Shown here piece after piece: positions 1,228-44,491 of a stretch of 47,763 nucleotides of DNA (its first letter is position 1; the number at the start of each line of letters is the position of its first letter). Location of the stretch: positions 1-47,763 of the forward strand of contig DAOUZE010000002.1 of NCBI GenBank assembly GCA_030665765.1. The letters are read 5' to 3'. The position numbers and the translations under genes were made by a program. The notes below the pieces were generated by a model. The model was not told the origin of the DNA and did not search any database. It saw only the letters and a list, made by a program, of their open reading frames with translations. The DNA comes from Filomicrobium sp. GTDB taxonomy: Bacteria > Pseudomonadota > Alphaproteobacteria > Rhizobiales > Hyphomicrobiaceae.

Positions 1228-2121
1228 TTAGGCCGCCAACTTGGCGACGACCGCGGCGACGGTCGATCCCATGTCCGAGGGGGTTGGCGAGATGGCCACA
1301 CCGGCGGCTTTGAGGATCTCAACTTTCTCCGCTGCGGACTCGCCGAAGCTTGTCACGATGGCACCCGCATGCCCCATGCGGCGGCCCTTTGGAGCGGATA
1401 GACCCGCAATGTAGGCGATGACCGGTTTCGACATGTGGTCACGAGCGTACTCCGCACCTTCGGCTTCCTGAGGGCCGCCGATTTCGCCGATCATCAAAAC
1501 AGCATCTGTCTCGTCGTCCTTCTCGAACTCTTCAAGAATGTCGCGGAACGAAGTGCCGTTGATCGGGTCGCCACCGATGCCGACGCTGGTTGAGATGCCG
1601 AGGCCCAGAGCCTTCAGCTGCTCAGCTGCTTCGTAGCCGAGCGTGCCCGACCGTCCGATAATCCCGATGCGGCCGCGCTCGTAGATGTGTCCTGGCATGA
1701 TGCCAAGCATTGCGCGTCCTGGGGAAATCGTACCGGCGCAGTTGGGGCCAGCCAACTGCATGCGGTTCGCCTTCTTGTAGCGACGCATGTAGCGTTTGAC
1801 GCGGATCATGTCCTGAGCCGGAATACCGTCGGTTATGCACGTGCAGTATTTGATCCCTGCGTCGGCAGCTTCCATGATGGCGTCGGCCGCGAATGGCGGC
1901 GGCACGAACACAATTGATACTTCAGCCCCGGTCTCAGCAACAGCGCCCTTGACGGTGTTGAAGACTGGACGACCGAGATGTTCGGTGCCGCCCTTGCCTG
2001 GAGTTACGCCGCCAACGACGTTGGTGCCGTAATCAATCATTTCCTGAGCGTGGAACGTCCCAATACGGCCGGTGAAGCCCTGGATCAGGATCTTGGTGTT
2101 TTCGTTGACGAAAATCGCCAT
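1228..2121 (-). CDS. mtkB: malate--CoA ligase (malate thiokinase) alpha subunit, succinyl-CoA synthetase alpha-like
   Basis: ORF 297 aa; [40 protein letters not shown] and [10 protein letters not shown]; sits between mtkA and ppc. Confidence 0.93.
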
Positions 2122-2136
2122 TTCATGTCGCCTCCC

Positions 2137-3318
2137 TTAAGCGGCTTCAGCGTTTGAGTCTTTGGCCGCAGCAACCGCTTTCTCGGCGGCGTCGCGGAGG
2201 CTTTCGGCAGCCCGCAGCGTAAGACCACTTTCGGCAATAATCTTTCGGCCCTCTTCGACGTTGGTACCGGCGAGGCGGACAACGACGGGTACCTTGATGT
2301 CAAGCTCCTGGACCGCGAGCACGACGCCCTTGGCGACCCAGTCGCAACGATTGATGCCTGCAAAGACGTTGACCAGGACCGCCTTGACATTGGAGTCGCG
2401 CAATACCGCTCGGAACGACTTTTGAACCCGTTCCGGGCTGGCACCGCCGCCGATGTCGAGGAAGTTGGCGGGTTCACCGCCGGCGACCTTGATCATGTCG
2501 AGCGTCGCCATAGCGAGCCCCGCACCGTTGACGATGCAGCCGATATCACCTTCCAGGCCAACATAGGAGAGACCGCGGTCTGAGGCGTAGGTCTCGCGCG
2601 GATCTTCCTGCGACTTGTCGCGCAGCTCGGAAATCTGCGGGCGGCGGAACAGTGCGTTGTCATCAAACGACATCTTTGCGTCGAGGGCGACGACGGCGCC
2701 TTCCTGGGTAATGACCAGCGGATTGACCTCAACCATGGTGGCGTCAAGATCGCGGAAGGCACGATAACAACCAAGGATAGTGCGCTCGAACTTGTTGACG
2801 AGCTCGGGCTCAATTCCGAGACCGAAAGCGATTTCCCTGGCTTGGAAGCCCTGCATGCCGACAGCAGGGTCGACGACCACATTGAGTACCGAATCCGGAT
2901 CGCTTTCTGTGATCTCCTCGATGTCCATGCCACCGGCAGCGGAGGCGCAGACGACGATGCGTTCCTTGGCCCGGTCCATCACCAAGGAGAGGTATATCTC
3001 CTTGTCGATGTTGGTGCCTTCTTCGATGTAGAGGCGCGAGACCAGTTTGCCTTGCGGCCCGGTCTGCGTGGTGACCAGCTTTTTACCCAGGAGCGTGTCG
3101 GCGGCCTCCCAGATGTCCTCGTCAGTGCGGCACATCTTGACGCCGCCCGCCTTGCCACGCGCACCGGCGTGGATCTGGGCCTTTACGACCCAGACCGAAC
3201 CGCCGATCTCGTTTGCGCGATAGGTTGCCTGTTCTGGGGAATAGGCAAGGCCGCCGCGGGGGATAGGCACTCCGAACTTCGACAGAAGTTCTTTGGCTTG
3301 ATATTCGTGGATATCCAT
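2137..3318 (-). CDS. mtkA: malate--CoA ligase (malate thiokinase) beta subunit
   Basis: ORF 393 aa; [31 protein letters not shown] (ATP-grasp, SucC-like); adjacent to mtkB. Confidence 0.93.
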
Positions 3319-3369
3319 TCCGTCCTCCCTTGTTGATTTTACGGCAGCCTTCGCTGTCCGCTTTTTTGA

Positions 3370-4329
3370 TCAGCCCTTACGAGCCGACGCTGCTTCTTTG
3401 ATTGCATCGCTGGTTGCGATGACGTTGCGGGCCATACGCTCGGAAGCGGCATCTATCATCTTGCCGTCGAGAGACGCCGCACCTTTGCCTTGCGCCTCGG
3501 CTTCCTTCAAAGCGACAACCATCCGCTCAGCCTTTTCAACTTCCTTGTCGGTGGGCGAGAACACTTCGTTGGCCATTTTGATTTGGGAGGGATGGATGGC
3601 CCATTTGCCTTCGTAGCCGAGCGCGGCTGCGCGGCGGGCGGAGAGCATGTAACCTTCGGGATCATCGATGCCACCGAACGGACCATCAATCGCGCGCAGG
3701 CCGTAGGAGCGGCATGCGATCAGCATGCGGGTCAGCGAGGCGTGCCACTGATCGCCGGGATAATCGGGATTGAGGCCACCGATCACAACGGTGCGAGAAC
3801 GCAAGCTTGCCGCGTAGTCGGCAACGCCGAAGTGAAGAGCTTCGATGCGGTTAGGGTATTTGGCGACGTCTTCAACGTTGGCCATGCCGATCGCGGTTTC
3901 GATCAAGGCTTCAAGTCCGATGCGGCCCGGCTCGAATCCCTTGGCCTGCTCGATCTGGCTGAGCATGGCATCGACCATATACAGGTCCGCCGGGACACCG
4001 ACCTTGGGGACAAGGATGGTGTCAATGTGCTGGCCAACTTCTTCGATTAGCTCGACGACGTCGCGGTACATGTAATGAGTGTCGAGGCCGTTGATGCGGA
4101 TTGATACCGTCTTACCGGCGCCACTCCAGTCCATCCCCTTCAGAGCCGCGATGATGTTGGCGCGGGCCTTGATCTTCTCGGGCGGTGCAACGGCATCTTC
4201 AAGATCGAGGAAAATGTAGTCGGCTTCGCTATTCAAAGCCTTTTCAAACATAGTGGGGTTGGAACCCGGCACGGCAAGTTCGCTGCGGTGCAGGCGTGCT
4301 TTGCGAAGGTTGTATAGCGTATGACTCAT
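3370..4329 (-). CDS. mcl: L-malyl-CoA/beta-methylmalyl-CoA lyase
   Basis: ORF 319 aa; RSELAVPGSNPTMFEKALNSEADYIFLDLEDAVAPPEK, a CitE/malyl-CoA lyase signature; serine-cycle neighbourhood. Confidence 0.92.
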   Translation of the reverse strand: MSHTLYNLRKARLHRSELAVPGSNPTMFEKALNSEADYIFLDLEDAVAPPEKIKARANIIAALKGMDWSGAGKTVSIRINGLDTHYMYRDVVELIEEVGQHIDTILVPKVGVPADLYMVDAMLSQIEQAKGFEPGRIGLEALIETAIGMANVEDVAKYPNRIEALHFGVADYAASLRSRTVVIGGLNPDYPGDQWHASLTRMLIACRSYGLRAIDGPFGGIDDPEGYMLSARRAAALGYEGKWAIHPSQIKMANEVFSPTDKEVEKAERMVVALKEAEAQGKGAASLDGKMIDAASERMARNVIATSDAIKEAASARKG

Positions 4330-4546
4330 AGACGTTTTCCTTTGTCCAGTCTGCCATCGTGGTCGTGGCAGGGCCTTTCTAGCTTTTGATTGGTCTTGCT
4401 TGTTTCGGCGAACCCATTGCTATCTGAAAAGCACGCCGATGTGCGTGAGTTTCTTCTCAGGGCAGGGCACGGCTCCTGGTAACGCCGCGGAAGTCCGCGA
4501 CGTTGATCGGCATACCAGATGTGGTTTCGCCGGTGTTTGCTTGACG

Positions 4547-5782
4547 TTAGGCGGCCTTCAGTCCGGCGTCTTCGCGCGAAGAGGCGGATTTGGTTGCCGT
4601 CTCGCTGAAATATTGGGCCGCTGCGCCTGTTCCAGAACCGAGCTCGATTTTGATGCCACTATCGCGTAGCGCCATTTCGACACCGAACAGGGCGCCGCCG
4701 ATCATGACCTCGTCGAGTGCGCCGAGATGACCGATGCGGAAGACCTTGCCGGCGACCTTTGTGAGGCCGACACCGAGCGAAACATTGTAGCGGTAGTAGG
4801 CTGTCTTAACGACATTAGCGCTGTCGATACCTTCGGGCACGTAAATCGCGCTGACCGTGTCCGATTGCCATTTCGGCTCTTTCGCGCAGAGCTTGAGGCC
4901 CCATGCGTCAACCGCCTTGCGCACACCCGTGGCCATTCGGGCGTGACGGGCGAAGATGTTATCCAGACCCTCTTCCGCGATCATGTCGAGAGAAGTGCGC
5001 AGACCGCGAAGAAGCTGGGTTGCTGGAGTGTAGGGGAAGAAGCCGAGGTCGTTGGTCTTGATCATGTCCTCGAACGAGAAGAAGCAACGGTTCATCAGCG
5101 GCTGCTGTGACTTATTGGCCTGCAGGGCCTTGTCGCTGACAGCGAGGATTCCAAGACCGGTCGGCAACATGAAGCCTTTTTGCGAGCCTGAAACGCAGCA
5201 ATCGACACGCCATTCGCCCATCCGCATGTCGATCGAAGCGACGGAGGACACACCATCGACCATAAGAAGTGCGGGGTGATTTGCCGCGTCCATCGCCTTG
5301 CGTACGCCGGCGATGTCGCTGCTAACGCCTGTGGCCGTTTCGTTCTGGGTAGCGAAGACCGCTTTGATCTCGCGGGCGGTGTCTTTGGACAAGATATCGG
5401 CATACTTTTCCAGCGGCACCCCAGTGCCCCACTCTTCGTCGCAGAGGATGACTTCAAGACCCATCCGCTCAGCCATGTCGACCCAAAGGTGCGAGAATTG
5501 ACCGAAGCGGCTCATCAGCACCTTGTCGCCAACGGTGAGAGTGTTCTCGATCGCGGCTTCCCATGCGCCGGTGCCAGAAGCCGGGTAGATGAACACGCGC
5601 CCATCGTTCATCTTGAAGACCTTCTTGATGTCTTCGAACAGGGGCAGGGTGAACTTCGGGAATTCAGGGCTACGCATGTCTTCCATAGGCAAATTCATTG
5701 CCATGCGGACCCGCTCTGGAATATTGGTTGGACCGGGGATGAAAAGGTGCGGCTGTACGAGCATGAAGCAAGTCCCTCCCAA
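4547..5782 (-). CDS. sga: serine--glyoxylate aminotransferase
   Basis: ORF 411 aa; HLFIPGPTNIPERVRMAMN, VDGVSSVASIDMRMGEWRVDCCVSGSQKGFMLPTGLG (class V PLP aminotransferase). Confidence 0.93.
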   Translation of the reverse strand: MGGTCFMLVQPHLFIPGPTNIPERVRMAMNLPMEDMRSPEFPKFTLPLFEDIKKVFKMNDGRVFIYPASGTGAWEAAIENTLTVGDKVLMSRFGQFSHLWVDMAERMGLEVILCDEEWGTGVPLEKYADILSKDTAREIKAVFATQNETATGVSSDIAGVRKAMDAANHPALLMVDGVSSVASIDMRMGEWRVDCCVSGSQKGFMLPTGLGILAVSDKALQANKSQQPLMNRCFFSFEDMIKTNDLGFFPYTPATQLLRGLRTSLDMIAEEGLDNIFARHARMATGVRKAVDAWGLKLCAKEPKWQSDTVSAIYVPEGIDSANVVKTAYYRYNVSLGVGLTKVAGKVFRIGHLGALDEVMIGGALFGVEMALRDSGIKIELGSGTGAAAQYFSETATKSASSREDAGLKAA

Positions 5783-6041
5783 ATCTTTTTAGTTCTTACG
5801 AAGATTGGTCTTGGCCATGGCCGAGACTTCGGTATTGGCTGACCTCCTCGTTTTTATGGACTTTGGTCGAACGCCTCACAACACCCGCGCGGATAGGAAT
5901 TACCACCTGATCGGATAGGCGTCAGGTCAAGAAAATTCTCATCATTAGCAATGGGTTAATCGGGCTCAGCTACCCGAAGGGGTAGGGCGCCTGCCGGGTG
6001 GGTAGGCAGTTTACTACCTTTCATGATGAGAATAGGCGCTC

Positions 6042-6740
6042 TCAGAAGCGTTCGGGGCCCGCGGACAAGAACATCGCGACGGCCATTGCGCGGTTGTTAG
6101 CGCCGATTTTCTCGTAGAGATTCTTCAGGTGATACTTCACCGTGTTGCGCGAGATACCAATCCTTGTCGCTATCTGCTCATTGGTCCAGCCGTTGGCAAG
6201 TGCGCGCAGAAGCTCTTTCTCCCTGACAGTCAGGTTTTCCAGCGGATCGCTCATCAGGGAGCTGATATCAACGAAGGGAATGCTCATGCGTCCTTGCTGA
6301 ACGCACGCGATGGCGTCTATGAGCACGGAGGGATCATCGGCCTTGGAGGTAACACCCCATGCGCCGCTCTTGACGGCTTCACGCAGGACCGCGGGGCTGA
6401 AGTCTCCGGTGTAGATTATGACTCGAGTCGGCAGATTGCGCCTTTTGATGGCGCGAAGGACGTCGCCGCCAGTCATATCGGGCAGGCCCCAGCCGATGAC
6501 ACCGACATCTATTTTCTGGCGCTCACAGGCCGAAATGAACTCCGCACCGCTCGCCACCATTTCACGTACGGCAAAGCGCTCATCGCGGGCGATGTAGTCG
6601 AAAAGCCCCGCTCGCACGATCGGATTTTTATCGGCAACGGCTATCGTGACGCCGTTATGTTTGCGGTTCACCACAAGGTCGGAAGGATCGGAGACGCTGC
6701 GCGGCTCGGATTGGGCGTAGATCTGTGGTCGCGCCTGCAT
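6042..6740 (-). CDS. LuxR-family response regulator with degenerate receiver domain
   Basis: ORF 232 aa; receiver-like N-terminus VTIAVADKNPIVRAGL...VGVIGWGLPDMTG plus C-terminal HTH LTVREKELLRALANGWTNEQIATRIGISRNTVKYHLKNLYEKIG. Confidence 0.85.
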   Translation of the reverse strand: MQARPQIYAQSEPRSVSDPSDLVVNRKHNGVTIAVADKNPIVRAGLFDYIARDERFAVREMVASGAEFISACERQKIDVGVIGWGLPDMTGGDVLRAIKRRNLPTRVIIYTGDFSPAVLREAVKSGAWGVTSKADDPSVLIDAIACVQQGRMSIPFVDISSLMSDPLENLTVREKELLRALANGWTNEQIATRIGISRNTVKYHLKNLYEKIGANNRAMAVAMFLSAGPERF

Positions 6741-26621: not shown

Positions 26622-27017
26622 CGTTTACCCTGATCTTTCCTTCCGAACGCGGAACAGTCAGTCCCAAGAATGCCTGGAGAAGGAATGCTTCGCATTAGCG
26701 AACGGCCTTTCCAGGGCGCATCGTCCTCATGTACACAATCGGAAGCATTACTCACTTTTTCCTGACATGGCGCAATTATCGTCCTCCGAATTCAACCTCA
26801 GAACCTATTATTTTGCTCAATGTAGACAAGCTTTCATAAAGTGCGCTGCAAAATTTATTGTTGCGCCGCGGTGCAAGTCGCTAGGAATGGGTGTACACTA
26901 TCTCCTGAAGACGTTTGCATAACTGAGGGCCTGTGGCCAAGCACAGCTCATACAAAACGAGGCTGGCTAACCCAGTCACAATTACGTTGTACAAGCGTGG
27001 GCCACCTTTCGATTGGA

Positions 27018-27947
27018 ATGGGAATGGCAAAACACTCTAATGGCATCCCGAGCGAAGCACGGCGGGGGTCCGAACCGGCTGATGAAGCCTATCTGCGACT
27101 CGTTGGAGAGCGCGTTCGATTGATGCGTCTGCAGATGGGCATGTCGCGCAAGGCGCTGTCACATACTTCCGGCGTATCGGAGAGGTATCTCGCTGAACTC
27201 GAGAGGGGTTCGGGCAACGCTTCGCTGTTGGTATTGAGAAGCATCGCCGACGCTCTCGGAACTCGCGTGCACGACCTGACCATCGAGGATGATGATCGAC
27301 CGATCGACAAGACACTGGCCATCCATCACTTGGAGAAACTCGGCGCAGCGCAAGCTGCGGAGGCGCGCCAGCTGCTCGTCGACCGGTTTGGACGCAAGCC
27401 GCCTTCCCGTGTCGCGCGTATTGCGCTTGTCGGGATGCGTGGCGCTGGCAAAGCAACATTGGGTGGCGCGCTGGCACAGGCTCTATCGTTGCCCTGCGTC
27501 GACTTGGATCGCGAGGTCGAGCGCGCTAGCGGCATCGAAGTGTCGGAAGTGTTCTCGGTTCATGGTGAAGAAGTCTACCAACGGCTGCAGCACGAATGCC
27601 TGAGCAACGTTCTGAACAGCCTGCCGCGCGGTGTCATCACGACGGGAGGTGGGATCGTCCGGTCGAAGACCACCTATGATCTCTTGCTGGCTGGATGCTT
27701 TGTCGTTTGGGTGCGCGCGTCGCTCGATGAGATCCATCGCGGCTGGGGTGAGGAAACCTTCGACGGTGACGATGCCTACGCGGCAGAAGTGCACCCCAAG
27801 CTTGAAGCAGCACTGGCTGAAAGAGTGCCGCTCTACGAGATGGCAGACGCTGTTGCCGACACCACGGGGCGGACCGTCGAACAAGCAGTTAACGAGGTCC
27901 TCAAGCTGATCGAAGAACGTGCGGTGCGGCCGGGCCGAGCCGCATAG
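27018..27947 (+). CDS. BoxR/BzdR-type regulator: XRE HTH fused to shikimate kinase-like domain
   Basis: ATG at 27018 or 27024 within ORF 26841..27947; HTH GERVRLMRLQMGMSRKALSHTSGVSERYLAELERGSGNASL; kinase-like RIALVGMRGAGKATLGGALAQALSLPCVDLDREVERASG. Confidence 0.85.
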   Translation: MGMAKHSNGIPSEARRGSEPADEAYLRLVGERVRLMRLQMGMSRKALSHTSGVSERYLAELERGSGNASLLVLRSIADALGTRVHDLTIEDDDRPIDKTLAIHHLEKLGAAQAAEARQLLVDRFGRKPPSRVARIALVGMRGAGKATLGGALAQALSLPCVDLDREVERASGIEVSEVFSVHGEEVYQRLQHECLSNVLNSLPRGVITTGGGIVRSKTTYDLLLAGCFVVWVRASLDEIHRGWGEETFDGDDAYAAEVHPKLEAALAERVPLYEMADAVADTTGRTVEQAVNEVLKLIEERAVRPGRAA

Positions 27948-40263: not shown

Positions 40264-40387
40264 TGTCCCCTGATTCCCTAATCCGCTCGCTCGCGAAATC
40301 CTTCCCGATCCTCCGCAACACTCAATTGCGCGTGGAATGTGGCAGGCACAGGGTTGCGACGCACGATAGAGCAGAAAAGCAACAAAA

Positions 40388-40437: not shown

Positions 40438-41031
40438 TCAGTAGCGAGGGTGCGAGCGAACCCAATGGCGGCGGCCGGAGGGCACCGCAACGCGATGGCG
40501 GACCGTGCGATAAACCGCCGGGACGTGGACCTTGCGAGCGCGGGCTCCTCGGACGAGTACGCGCCGCGGGATAGTGCCGTAAACGGCCGGAATATGTCGG
40601 CGGATACGACGGGCAGGGCGCACAACGACGTGGCGGACAACACGGCGGGTGACAGCTGGAACACGGACCTTGCACATCCGGTCCCGCCGGAACAGGCCGC
40701 GACGGTGAACCCAGCGCGTTGTTGCGGGACGAACGACGACGGTTTCATAAACCCGACGCGTTACGGCAGGCACCACTTCGTAAGCCGTGTGGGCGGACTC
40801 CAAAAGCACGCGGCGATGAACCGTGCGATAACGGGCGGGAGCGTGCTCGTAATGCACGCTCCGCGGTTCGACCATAACGTCACGTTCAACGGTCCGGTAA
40901 ACGTCCGGGGCGCGAACCCTTTCGTAGCACTCGAGCGAACGATGACAGCCGCGGTCGAAAGCGGACGCGGCTTGCGGCATCAGCACTAGGGTGACCGCCA
41001 CGGCCGCTCCGGCGATTGCTCTGGTCTTCAT
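40438..41031 (-). CDS. Secreted Arg/Val-rich repeat protein
   Basis: Internal ATG: MKTRAIAGAAVAVTLVLMPQAASA signal peptide, then degenerate units of the form (V/I)PAVYRTVxxRVxVxP. Confidence 0.7.
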   Translation of the reverse strand: MKTRAIAGAAVAVTLVLMPQAASAFDRGCHRSLECYERVRAPDVYRTVERDVMVEPRSVHYEHAPARYRTVHRRVLLESAHTAYEVVPAVTRRVYETVVVRPATTRWVHRRGLFRRDRMCKVRVPAVTRRVVRHVVVRPARRIRRHIPAVYGTIPRRVLVRGARARKVHVPAVYRTVRHRVAVPSGRRHWVRSHPRY

Positions 41032-41293
41032 GAGGCACGCAACTCCAAAATACATTGTGGCACCGCTCCGGCGCCTCGGGGAAAAGCCCAACTCTTTGGT
41101 GCCTCGCAGCGAAATGGCCGCAATCTACCCGCACCAAGACGCCATATTTTGCCGAAGGCCCCGCAACCTGTAGAGTATTGCTGTCGACAGCCTGACTGAA
41201 GTCATTAATCGTTACGTGGTAAACTCTATTTTGTTAAGCGTCAGTATAGTACACCTAAATCGAGATCTCGTAACGATTTCGTATCAATGAGTA

Positions 41294-41941
41294 TTGGCCC
41301 TGTACTTAATCAGGACCATTTTAAACGAAAGAGAAACTTCGACTAACGGAAGGTTGACGCTAGTGTCGGTGCGTAGTTTAGCAAATGTCGGCGGATGGAG
41401 CGTCAGGATCGCGGTGCTATTCAGCCTCCTGGCTGTTGCTGGCTGTGGCTGGGGCGATCTTGCTAGACATGACCAGGAGGCGCGCGCCAGCTGGGCTGCG
41501 CTGACGGCCGCGGACAGGATCAACGTGCAACTGGCGGACCGGTTGCTGACTGGCAGACATAACTCGGTGGTCAATCAGCCCAAAAAGGAAGCACGGCTGA
41601 AGCGCGCAGTGGCGCAGCTAAGACAGCTAAATACCGCATATGCCGTTGATCTGAGCGATAGCGCTGGCATGTCGAGCTACGGAGCGGCGCGTCAGCAGGT
41701 GGTGGGCTCGCTCAAGGAAATCGCGATCGCACTGGCCAACCGAGGCAACGCCAATCGAGCGTGGAGATCGCGATCACTGCGGCGGGAATGCGAGGCAGCG
41801 GTTTTTCGGTCCAACATTGCCATAAAATCTTACAATGCGGCTGCGCGTTCCTACAATCGCATCCTGGGTACTAGCCAAGCCAAAGTCTCTAAAGCGCTGC
41901 TTTATCCCGGGCTGCGTCAGTTCGCGTTGCTGGAGCCGTAG
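41294..41941 (+). CDS. LemA-like lipoprotein
   Basis: 215 aa; lipobox-like LFSLLAVAGCGW; C-terminal IKSYNAAARSYNRILG. Start uncertain. Confidence 0.45.
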   Translation: MALYLIRTILNERETSTNGRLTLVSVRSLANVGGWSVRIAVLFSLLAVAGCGWGDLARHDQEARASWAALTAADRINVQLADRLLTGRHNSVVNQPKKEARLKRAVAQLRQLNTAYAVDLSDSAGMSSYGAARQQVVGSLKEIAIALANRGNANRAWRSRSLRRECEAAVFRSNIAIKSYNAAARSYNRILGTSQAKVSKALLYPGLRQFALLEP

Positions 41942-42155
41942 AACGGCTTCGCCTGGAGTTTACCGGTAACTTCGAGGCCAGGTGGCAGGACCGAAAACGG
42001 AATGAAATAACATAACTAAGCTTATGGAATAACGTAACACCCATCAGGTGAGCTTATCTTTCGCCGGTCAATTTCCAATTTCACGGCGTCCTCGGAAAGC
42101 AGTATGACGTAATCGTGCGGTCGATAGAGACCGATTAACCCGAGGAGAGATGATC

Positions 42156-42245
42156 ATGAAAGTTTGGAGCAAGCCGCAGGTTCGCGAACAAGAAGTTGGT
42201 CTCGAAGTCACCAGCTATCTTCCAGCTGAAATCGACATCATCTAA
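42156..42245 (+). CDS. pqqA: Pyrroloquinoline quinone precursor peptide PqqA
   Basis: 29 aa: MKVWSKPQVREQEVGLEVTSYLPAEIDII*; EVTSY holds the Glu-x-x-x-Tyr pair cross-linked in PQQ; RBS GAGGAGA just upstream. In-frame ATG also at 42150. Too short for the ORF track. Confidence 0.92.
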   Translation: MKVWSKPQVREQEVGLEVTSYLPAEIDII

Positions 42246-42291
42246 TCGATTTATAGCTCTTCTTCCTTGATGGGAAGAACACTGTTTTAAA

Positions 42292-42332
42292 CGATGGCCC
42301 AAGCAGAGCGCTTGGGTCATCGATTTTGTTTT
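42292..42332 (+). terminator. Rho-independent terminator downstream of pqqA
   Basis: 13-bp stem CGATGGCCCAAGC-agagc-GCTTGGGTCATCG (one G-T pair) then ATTTTGTTTT. Confidence 0.75.
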
Positions 42333-42350
42333 GGGCACTGCTTAACGCCT

Positions 42351-42869
42351 TCAGGACGGGCGTTGACGCAGCATCAGCCATTCCGGACCCACGATCGGGT
42401 CTTCCCAGACGGTCACCCACTGAAATCCGGCGCGTTCGTATGCGCGCACCGCAGCCTCGTTGCGCACGGAGACAAAAACGCTGAGCGCCATGGCGAGCGT
42501 CGATCCGAATACTTCGGCGGTAAGCTGATCCAACGCCGCACCGCCAATGTTGCGGCCTCGAAATTCCGCCTCGCCAATGAAAAGATCGACGTCCCAAGTC
42601 CAAGGCGGCAGGACATCGGGCAGGTTTTCGCCCCAGTAGACGGCATCGATGGCATGCGCATAGCCGACGGGTTTTCCCGAGACCTCGATAATCCTGCCGA
42701 TGGCTGACGGCGTTTCCAGTACTATGCGCACTTCCGCTTCAGCCGCTGACGGGTTGCCCCACCAGCGTTTGACCGCCGGTCCATGCAGCCAGTTGAGCAG
42801 CATCGGCCAGTCGGACGGCGTGACAGGCCGCAATGCAACGTCTTCACCGCTGTCGCTTGGGCTACCCAT
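42351..42869 (-). CDS. GNAT acetyltransferase, AAC(6')/RimJ-like
   Basis: 172 aa; VALRPVTPSDWPMLLNWLHGPAVKRWWG...GRNIGGAALDQLTAEVFG...NEAAVRAYERAGFQ. Confidence 0.82.
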   Translation of the reverse strand: MGSPSDSGEDVALRPVTPSDWPMLLNWLHGPAVKRWWGNPSAAEAEVRIVLETPSAIGRIIEVSGKPVGYAHAIDAVYWGENLPDVLPPWTWDVDLFIGEAEFRGRNIGGAALDQLTAEVFGSTLAMALSVFVSVRNEAAVRAYERAGFQWVTVWEDPIVGPEWLMLRQRPS

Positions 42870-42898
42870 TGACGTTGCTCGGGTTGAAGTTGCTGCCG

Positions 42899-44491
42899 CT
42901 AATGGCGGAAATGGCGGACGCCCGTGAATACCATCGCTAATCCGCGCTCGTTTGCCGCCGATATGACTTCTTCATCGCGCATGGAACCACCTGGTTGAAT
43001 GATCGCGGTGGCGCCCGCCTCGGCAGCCGTGATCAAACCATCCGCGAATGGGAAAAACGCATCGGAAGCAACGACCGATCCTTTGGTCAACGGCTGCGAT
43101 AGCCCGCCAGCTTTGGCCGCATCTTCAGACTTCCAAGCTGCAATGCGTGTCGAGTCAACGCGGCTCATCTGGCCCGCGCCAATACCGACTGTTGCACAAT
43201 CCTTGGCATAAATGACGGCATTCGACTTGACGTGCTTTGCGATCTTGAAGGCGAAGCGCAGATCGGCCAGCTCCTCTTCCGTCGGAGCCCGGTCGGTGAC
43301 GACCTTGAGCTCGATGTCCTCGATGACTGCGGCATCGCGGTTTTGAACCAGCAACGCGCCGGCCAGAGACCGAACCGCAAGCCCGGGGCTGCGAGGATCA
43401 GGAAGCCCGCCCGTCGTCAGCAATCGCAAGTTTGGCTTCTTGGCGAAAACTGCCTTGGCCGCGTCAGTTGCGGACGGCGCAATGACGACCTCGGTGAAGA
43501 TCTTTGTCATCGCCAACGCGGCACCCTCGTCGATTTCCCGGTTGGTCGCGATGATGCCACCGAAGGCGCTGACCGGATCGCAGCGCAACGCGGACCGGTA
43601 AGCCTCCATGAGTGAAGCGCTGACGGCAACCCCACACGGATTAGCGTGCTTGATAATCGCAACGGCGGCGCCGGCTTCTGGAGTAAACTCCGCGACTAAT
43701 TCGAAAGCGGCATCGGTGTCGTTGAAGTTATTGTAGGAGAGTTCCTTGCCTTGAATCTGAATTGCGCTTGCGACGCCTGCACGCCGCTCTCCCGTGACAT
43801 AAAGGGCCGCCTTTTGATGCGGATTTTCACCGTAGCGCGTGACCTGTGCTAGCCGTCCAGCAAAGGTCCGCCAAGCCGGCGCGGATTCGTCGGTGATTTG
43901 GGCCATCCAGTTACTAATGGCGGCGTCATAGGAAGCGGTTCGCGCGTAAGCCTTGGCGGCAAGCGCGCGGCGCAGAGTGAGGGTCGTGGCGCCATTATTA
44001 CTCTGCATTTCCGCGAGGATTCGATAATAGTCGGCGGGATCAACGAGGACGGTCACGCCGTCGTGGTTCTTCGCCGCTGCCCTAATCATGGCCGGGCCAC
44101 CGATATCTATGTTTTCGATTAAAGCGTCGAAGTCACGGCCAGCGGCCAGAGTTTCCTCAAAGGGATACAGAGAGACCGCCAGCAGGTCGATCGGCAGAAT
44201 ACCGTGCTCGGCGGCAGCGGTCTGGTGACTGAAATTGTCGCGAACCGCGAGCAAGCCGCCATGAACCTTATGGTGCAGTGTCTTGACGCGGCCATCCATC
44301 ATTTCCGGCATGCCGGTGATTTCTGATATGTCGCGTACAGGCAAGCCGGCATTCTTCAATGCCGCTGCCGTTCCTCCGGTTGAAACCAGCTCCACGCCCT
44401 GCGAGACAAGTGCGTTGGCGAACGGAAACAATCCTGTTTTGTCGGAAACCGACAGCAGAGCGCGTGTGATCTTGCGCGGCTTTTCGGGCAT
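42899..44491 (-). CDS. purH: Bifunctional AICAR formyltransferase/IMP cyclohydrolase
   Basis: 530 aa; [62 protein letters not shown]. Confidence 0.97.

Follow-up and report, generated by a model that had tools for sequence, protein, structure and literature searches.

Why methylotrophic bacteria should keep several stand-alone copies of pqqA, the gene for the precursor peptide of PQQ, beside a full pqq operon is a question raised by published examples. In Methylorubrum extorquens AM1, the orphan genes pqqA2 and pqqA3 stand alone beside a full pqq set elsewhere and are expressed differently from the main operon (PMC11317620; PMC6520949), while Methylovorus sp. MP688 (Ge 2015, cited in PMC11317620 and PMC9851590) and Hyphomicrobium strain FJNU-6 (PMC9851590) each have five copies, some of them apart from the operon and differently expressed; in the portions of these accounts that were available (PMC11317620, PMC9851590), the regulators are not identified and a fixed promoter element is not mentioned. 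Here, we describe a copy from Filomicrobium sp. that, like those of M. extorquens, stands alone beside a full set elsewhere. It lies in a stretch of 47,763 nucleotides (the window), which is the entire contig C534 of a draft genome of 4.0 Mb and 94% completeness, and is preceded by an operator-like dyad that bears directly on the question.

The gene, its signals and its neighbours are collected in Table 1. Its product scores 31.2 bits against Pfam PF08042 (cut-off 21.1) and 28 bits against NCBIfam TIGR02107 (cut-off 20), and its translation contains, as EVTSY, the Glu-x3-Tyr core that is the substrate for PqqE cross-linking. The 3' region of the gene folds with an energy of -34.9 kcal/mol (z = -5.0). 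A preliminary description of this DNA had listed a 29-aa PqqA, a ribosome-binding site, a terminator with a 13-bp stem and convergent unrelated genes, all of which were recovered in place. An Rfam scan of 41400-43000 gave no match up to E = 0.1, and thus no known riboswitch or RNA lies there. The lipoprotein-like ORF upstream has no Pfam match, and a related ORF precedes pqqA in most of the Filomicrobium genomes examined.

Further away in the window are some other genes of interest. The minus strand of 1228-6740 carries serine-cycle-like ORFs, by translation malate thiokinase subunits, malyl-CoA lyase and serine-glyoxylate aminotransferase, together with a LuxR-type regulator; 26841-27947 (+) encodes, again by translation, a fusion of a helix-turn-helix with a shikimate-kinase-like domain that resembles BoxR/BzdR-type regulators; and 40438-41091 (-) encodes a 217-aa protein of repeated VPAVYRTV/VPAVTRRV-like segments with no Pfam match.

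Table 1. Features in and around the stand-alone pqqA of the window
Feature	Position	Strand	Remarks
Lipoprotein-like ORF, 215 aa	41294-41941	+	5' of pqqA; context only
Box 1, GGAATGAAATAACATAAC	41999-42016	+	Holds first repeat, 42006-42016
Box 2, CTTATGGAATAACGTAAC	42021-42038	+	Holds second repeat, 42028-42038
OxyR-type dyad, ATCAG-GTGAG-CTTAT (LysR-type T-N11-A box)	42043-42057		Inverted repeat
Place of second OxyR contact, ATTTCACGGCGT	42078-42089	+	20 nt after dyad; degenerate; overlaps presumed -35
Presumed -35, TTTCAC	42079-42084	+	
Presumed -10, GTATGA	42102-42107	+	17 nt after presumed -35; inferred from promoter alignment
Ribosome-binding site, GAGGAGAG	42142-42149	+	From sequence
Stand-alone pqqA, 29 aa and stop	42156-42245	+	CDS 42156-42242, stop 42243-42245; translation MKVWSKPQVREQEVGLEVTSYLPAEIDII; E-x3-Y core EVTSY; PF08042, TIGR02107
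Intrinsic terminator	42292-42332	+	Stem 42292-42322, 13 pairs, 8 G-C; then T-rich tail, ATTTTGTTTT
GNAT acetyltransferase	42351-42869	-	Convergent with pqqA; Pfam PF13523; context only
PurH-like ORF	42899-44491	-	Convergent with pqqA

The ORFs of the window include no pqqB, pqqC, pqqD or pqqE. A search of the rest of the genome, which the preliminary description had proposed along with its idea of a precursor gene standing apart from a distant pqq operon, located pqqA-B-C-D-E together on contig C128, with pqqBCDE each above the NCBIfam cut-offs and with exactly one further pqqA, that of the operon itself. The window pqqA is a true extra precursor gene, and the full pqqABCDE operon lies on another contig. 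The two PqqA proteins are identical and their genes differ by seven synonymous and no non-synonymous codon changes, which argues that the stand-alone gene has been selected for the same product, and the stand-alone copies of the genus, with mean pairwise codon differences of 6.3 synonymous versus 1.0 non-synonymous, are under strong purifying selection.

Copies of pqqA are found in all nine Filomicrobium genomes, at two to four copies in eight and as a single copy in one that is incomplete (67%). The stand-alone copy occupies the same position across the genus, convergent with the GNAT and purH genes, where the contig allows this to be seen, and is tandemly repeated in two genomes (G003 and G004). 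In a survey of 103 genomes of the family, most of those from Hyphomicrobium-like genera carry 3-8 copies; the ‘orphan’ pqqA of the preliminary description does stand alone but is not exceptional, being of a kind already known in methylotrophs and usual in Hyphomicrobiaceae. One of the G003 copies (L027, G003:C1:3568561-3568644) is a divergent pqqA (MRVWTMPIIRETEIGLEVTSYLPAEIEIA) directly 5' of a PQQ-dependent dehydrogenase gene.

The region upstream of the window copy had first drawn attention through a direct repeat, AATAACATAAC at 42006-42016 and AATAACGTAAC at 42028-42038, identical at 10 of 11 positions with a 22-bp spacing. The repeat is present as described and far beyond chance, such a pair at this spacing matching once in the window against 0.00 expected from shuffles. 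Each of its units forms the right-hand portion of an 18-bp box; the two boxes lie 22 bp apart, centre to centre, and each can be read by eye as an imperfect palindrome. Both boxes occur in all ten aligned Filomicrobium stand-alone promoters, as part of a conserved block (AATAACATAAC-N4-CTTATGG-AATAACGTTAC-N2-C-N-AT[CT]AG-N5-CTTAT) within otherwise divergent sequence. A profile of this block built from the ten promoters (R1) finds only stand-alone pqqA at E < 1e-15, with the next match, at E = 0.0064, being the pqq operon promoter of genome G008. Across the genus, the boxes lie almost only upstream of pqqA, and the Filomicrobium pqq operon promoters carry related boxes; in one contig (G005:C215) the double box occurs twice. 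The stand-alone promoter differs from that of the operon and is kept in the genus, in line with the earlier proposal that the gene is separately regulated.

Outside Filomicrobium, the boxes are rare. A double-box scan of named genomes gave pqqA loci that, where they could be identified, all belonged to Filomicrobium (including F. insigne) or to MAGs of the genus. A match in Rhodospirillaceae lies 5' of a Zur/Fur-like gene, and several in AT-rich Bacteroidetes look like chance. Those further matches to the single-box pattern within the genus that were inspected are mostly intragenic or have no left half, and were also taken as chance.

Directly 3' of the boxes lies an element that is more widely shared than the repeat, namely a dyad of the pattern AT.AG-N5-CT.AT, which occurs only once in the whole window, at 42043-42057, and is conserved in 10 of 10 aligned Filomicrobium stand-alone promoters. 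We compared 83 upstream regions of pqqA from Hyphomicrobiaceae, 56 of them from stand-alone copies and 27 from operons. The exact dyad precedes 34 of the stand-alone genes, 102-129 nt before the ATG, and none of the operon genes, against a frequency of 0.2% in shuffles. The stand-alone copies share a fixed module, AT(C/T/A)AG-N5-CT(T/G)AT followed by 13 nt and AAAnnCGATT, which lies some 110 nt upstream of the start codon. In this comparison, about a dozen stand-alone copies scored no better than shuffled sequence, which counts against the reading proposed below. The core promoter is less distinct: a sigma-70 consensus scan gave no promoter match at pqqA, and the -10 is CTATAT-like in relatives. 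Two further loci carry stand-alone pqqA genes in tandem over ~1 kb, three in L242 (G080:C50) and four in L243 (G022:C109); the strict dyad was found before one gene of L242 and two genes of L243.

A likely identity for this dyad came from a second profile (R2), trained on stand-alone pqqA promoters only. Among 14 genomes, its strong matches were pqqA copies, and the next were promoters divergent between catalase genes and a LysR gene with OxyR features. An order-wide scan of 199 evenly drawn genomes at E of 0.005 or better gave 14 matches outside the family, of which 12 are at oxyR, katA or katG. The remaining two are a pqqA divergent from oxyR and one other site. In the former, from another family (L264, G238:C12), an OxyR-type site near 40312-40357 lies between oxyR and a pqqA (MREWHKPTIEETESGMEVTSYLPAELDRA) with pqqC downstream; among the 199 genomes of the order, only this genome and Hyphomicrobiaceae have such a site at pqqA. 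The other (L268, G265:C49:70371-70412) lies just 3' of purH and is followed by neither a pqqA nor a catalase gene that could be recognised; it may serve a short gene that escaped recognition, or a small RNA.

Independent evidence comes from Filomicrobium oxyR genes located through protein similarity alone. Their products contain the redox-cysteine motif GHCLRDQALxYC. The genome under study has its own OxyR (G000:C483, GHCLRDQALSYC) with the redox cysteines present; its highest-scoring NCBIfam family is OxyR, although the 243 bits fall short of the cut-off of 329, and the homologous query protein has OxyR as its best PDB match. The dyad, as AT[CA]AG-N5-C[TC][GA]AT, is found in the oxyR promoters of 7 of 7 Filomicrobium genomes, two of them by eye (CCGAT and CTAAT half-sites). 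When a 15-bp matrix built from these seven promoters was scored on both strands of the window, the pqqA dyad ranked first of 95,434 positions, at 18.8 bits versus 14.8 for the next; this is the minus-strand reading, the plus-strand reading ranking 11th. A broader matrix of 26 oxyR/kat operators gives 49 of 56 stand-alone and 4 of 27 operon promoters scores that exceed the 99th percentile for random DNA of the window, a comparison that is partly circular because most of these operators were found with the pqqA-trained profile; the non-circular evidence is that of the protein-located oxyR promoters and the matrix built from them.

The likeness extends to the spacing within the site. In the order, operators at oxyR, katA and katG consist of ATnAG-N5-CTnAT, a 20-nt spacer and a second contact, ATTnGnnCTTAT, over the -35, and the stand-alone pqqA promoters keep this spacing. 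The dyad at pqqA is that of the oxyR and catalase operators, from which the window copy differs in that its third and fourth half-sites (ATTTCACGGCGT) are degenerate, though the 20-nt spacing is kept in the family. LysR-type activators classically bind a dyad centred near -66 and make a second contact at the -35; given that the -35 and -10 elements here are weak, this layout suggests OxyR-dependent activation.

We therefore consider it probable, at roughly 70%, that the locus is a functional extra pqqA with its own promoter and terminator, predicted to be an OxyR target through the dyad. Binding of OxyR, activation and a peroxide signal at pqqA are what we infer from the promoter comparisons. 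The stand-alone gene would make the same PqqA as the operon, whose PqqB-PqqE would process it. Its promoter would be weak alone, with a LysR-type operator of the OxyR kind at about -66. As H2O2 rises, oxidised OxyR at the dyad would contact RNA polymerase and switch the stand-alone pqqA on, adding precursor without raising the operon, while in Filomicrobium the two boxes with their 22-bp spacing may provide a second, pqq-specific input common to the operon. Possible reasons for peroxide control are the redox activity of PQQ, a quinone, and the use of oxygen and peroxide in the final step of its synthesis.

Other regulators might of course account for the same promoter. T-N11-A sites are common to LysR-type regulators in general and not confined to OxyR, and an ordinary extra pqqA could be regulated with growth on methanol or lanthanides, without OxyR, by a methylotrophy regulator whose site happens to be a similar dyad, be it QscR of the LysR type or the response regulator of a two-component system. 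The genomic setting would suit such control: there are serine-cycle-type genes in the window, C1-type genes adjoin the pqq operon on C128, and the genome has two dehydrogenase genes with a WDYDG signature, read as XoxF type, with no MxaF-type dehydrogenase found. In M. extorquens, moreover, expression of the orphan pqqA2 and pqqA3 is reported to vary with the neodymium source (PMC11317620). Against this, the dyad with its 20-nt spacing recurs at oxyR, katA and katG, and in 213 genome scans hardly anywhere else besides pqqA promoters; there is no second dyad in the window and so none at its serine-cycle genes; and the dehydrogenase promoters examined are without boxes. The preliminary description, which had connected the gene with methanol, had suggested looking for the direct repeat elsewhere; the mxaF/xoxF-type genes examined do not have it, whereas the pqq operon promoters have the related boxes. 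We found no sign of control by methanol; the element with the widest distribution among these promoters matches OxyR operators, and we regard the methylotrophy reading as unlikely.

About equally unlikely is that the boxes are sites for the Fur-family regulator Zur, or a close relative, with a metal as the main control and the dyad secondary. With a matrix of the Paracoccus denitrificans Zur motif (PMC5387054), box 1 (17.8 bits) and box 2 are the best and second-ranked matches in the whole window, the operon boxes (GTAACGATATAACAG) match a site in a Paracoccus zur promoter at all but a single base, and a Zur-like protein is encoded on C251. The genus's own genes do not support Zur as main regulator: Filomicrobium zur promoters, where visible, have a different palindrome (ATGTTATAACAT), and the zur/znu regions examined (G000, G001, G003 and G006, one of them cut by a contig end) contain no pqq-type box; the boxes are also rare outside Filomicrobium. 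That the gene is a decaying, functionless duplicate whose promoter likeness is simply inherited might be entertained given how many pqqA copies the family has and how often they stand in tandem, but the identical protein with its silent differences, the strong purifying selection and the conservation of promoter boxes across species make this very improbable.

Predicted OxyR control of a stand-alone pqqA appears to be new. No published link between OxyR and pqqA was found in the literature searched, most subscription papers lying outside its coverage, and none is reported for pqqA2 and pqqA3 of M. extorquens (PMC11317620; PMC6520949). It would also widen the range of such operators, which at oxyR, katA and katG drive peroxide-removing enzymes and here would drive a cofactor precursor. 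A fixed OxyR-type operator on most copies in the family offers a testable answer to why methylotrophs keep several stand-alone pqqA genes beside a full operon, namely that precursor supply is raised under peroxide. If this is true, it would provide a handle for PQQ production strains, because PqqA supply has been reported to be rate-determining in Methylovorus (cited in PMC11317620). More tentatively, the peroxide response of Hyphomicrobiaceae may include PQQ synthesis, with OxyR raising precursor through several dedicated stand-alone pqqA genes, the operon promoter remaining separate and a second pqq-specific regulator, possibly a Fur-family metal sensor, acting on both through the paired 18-bp boxes in Filomicrobium. 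OxyR control of the stand-alone genes, if true, would connect the response to oxidative stress with a redox cofactor used in the metabolism of methanol and lanthanides.
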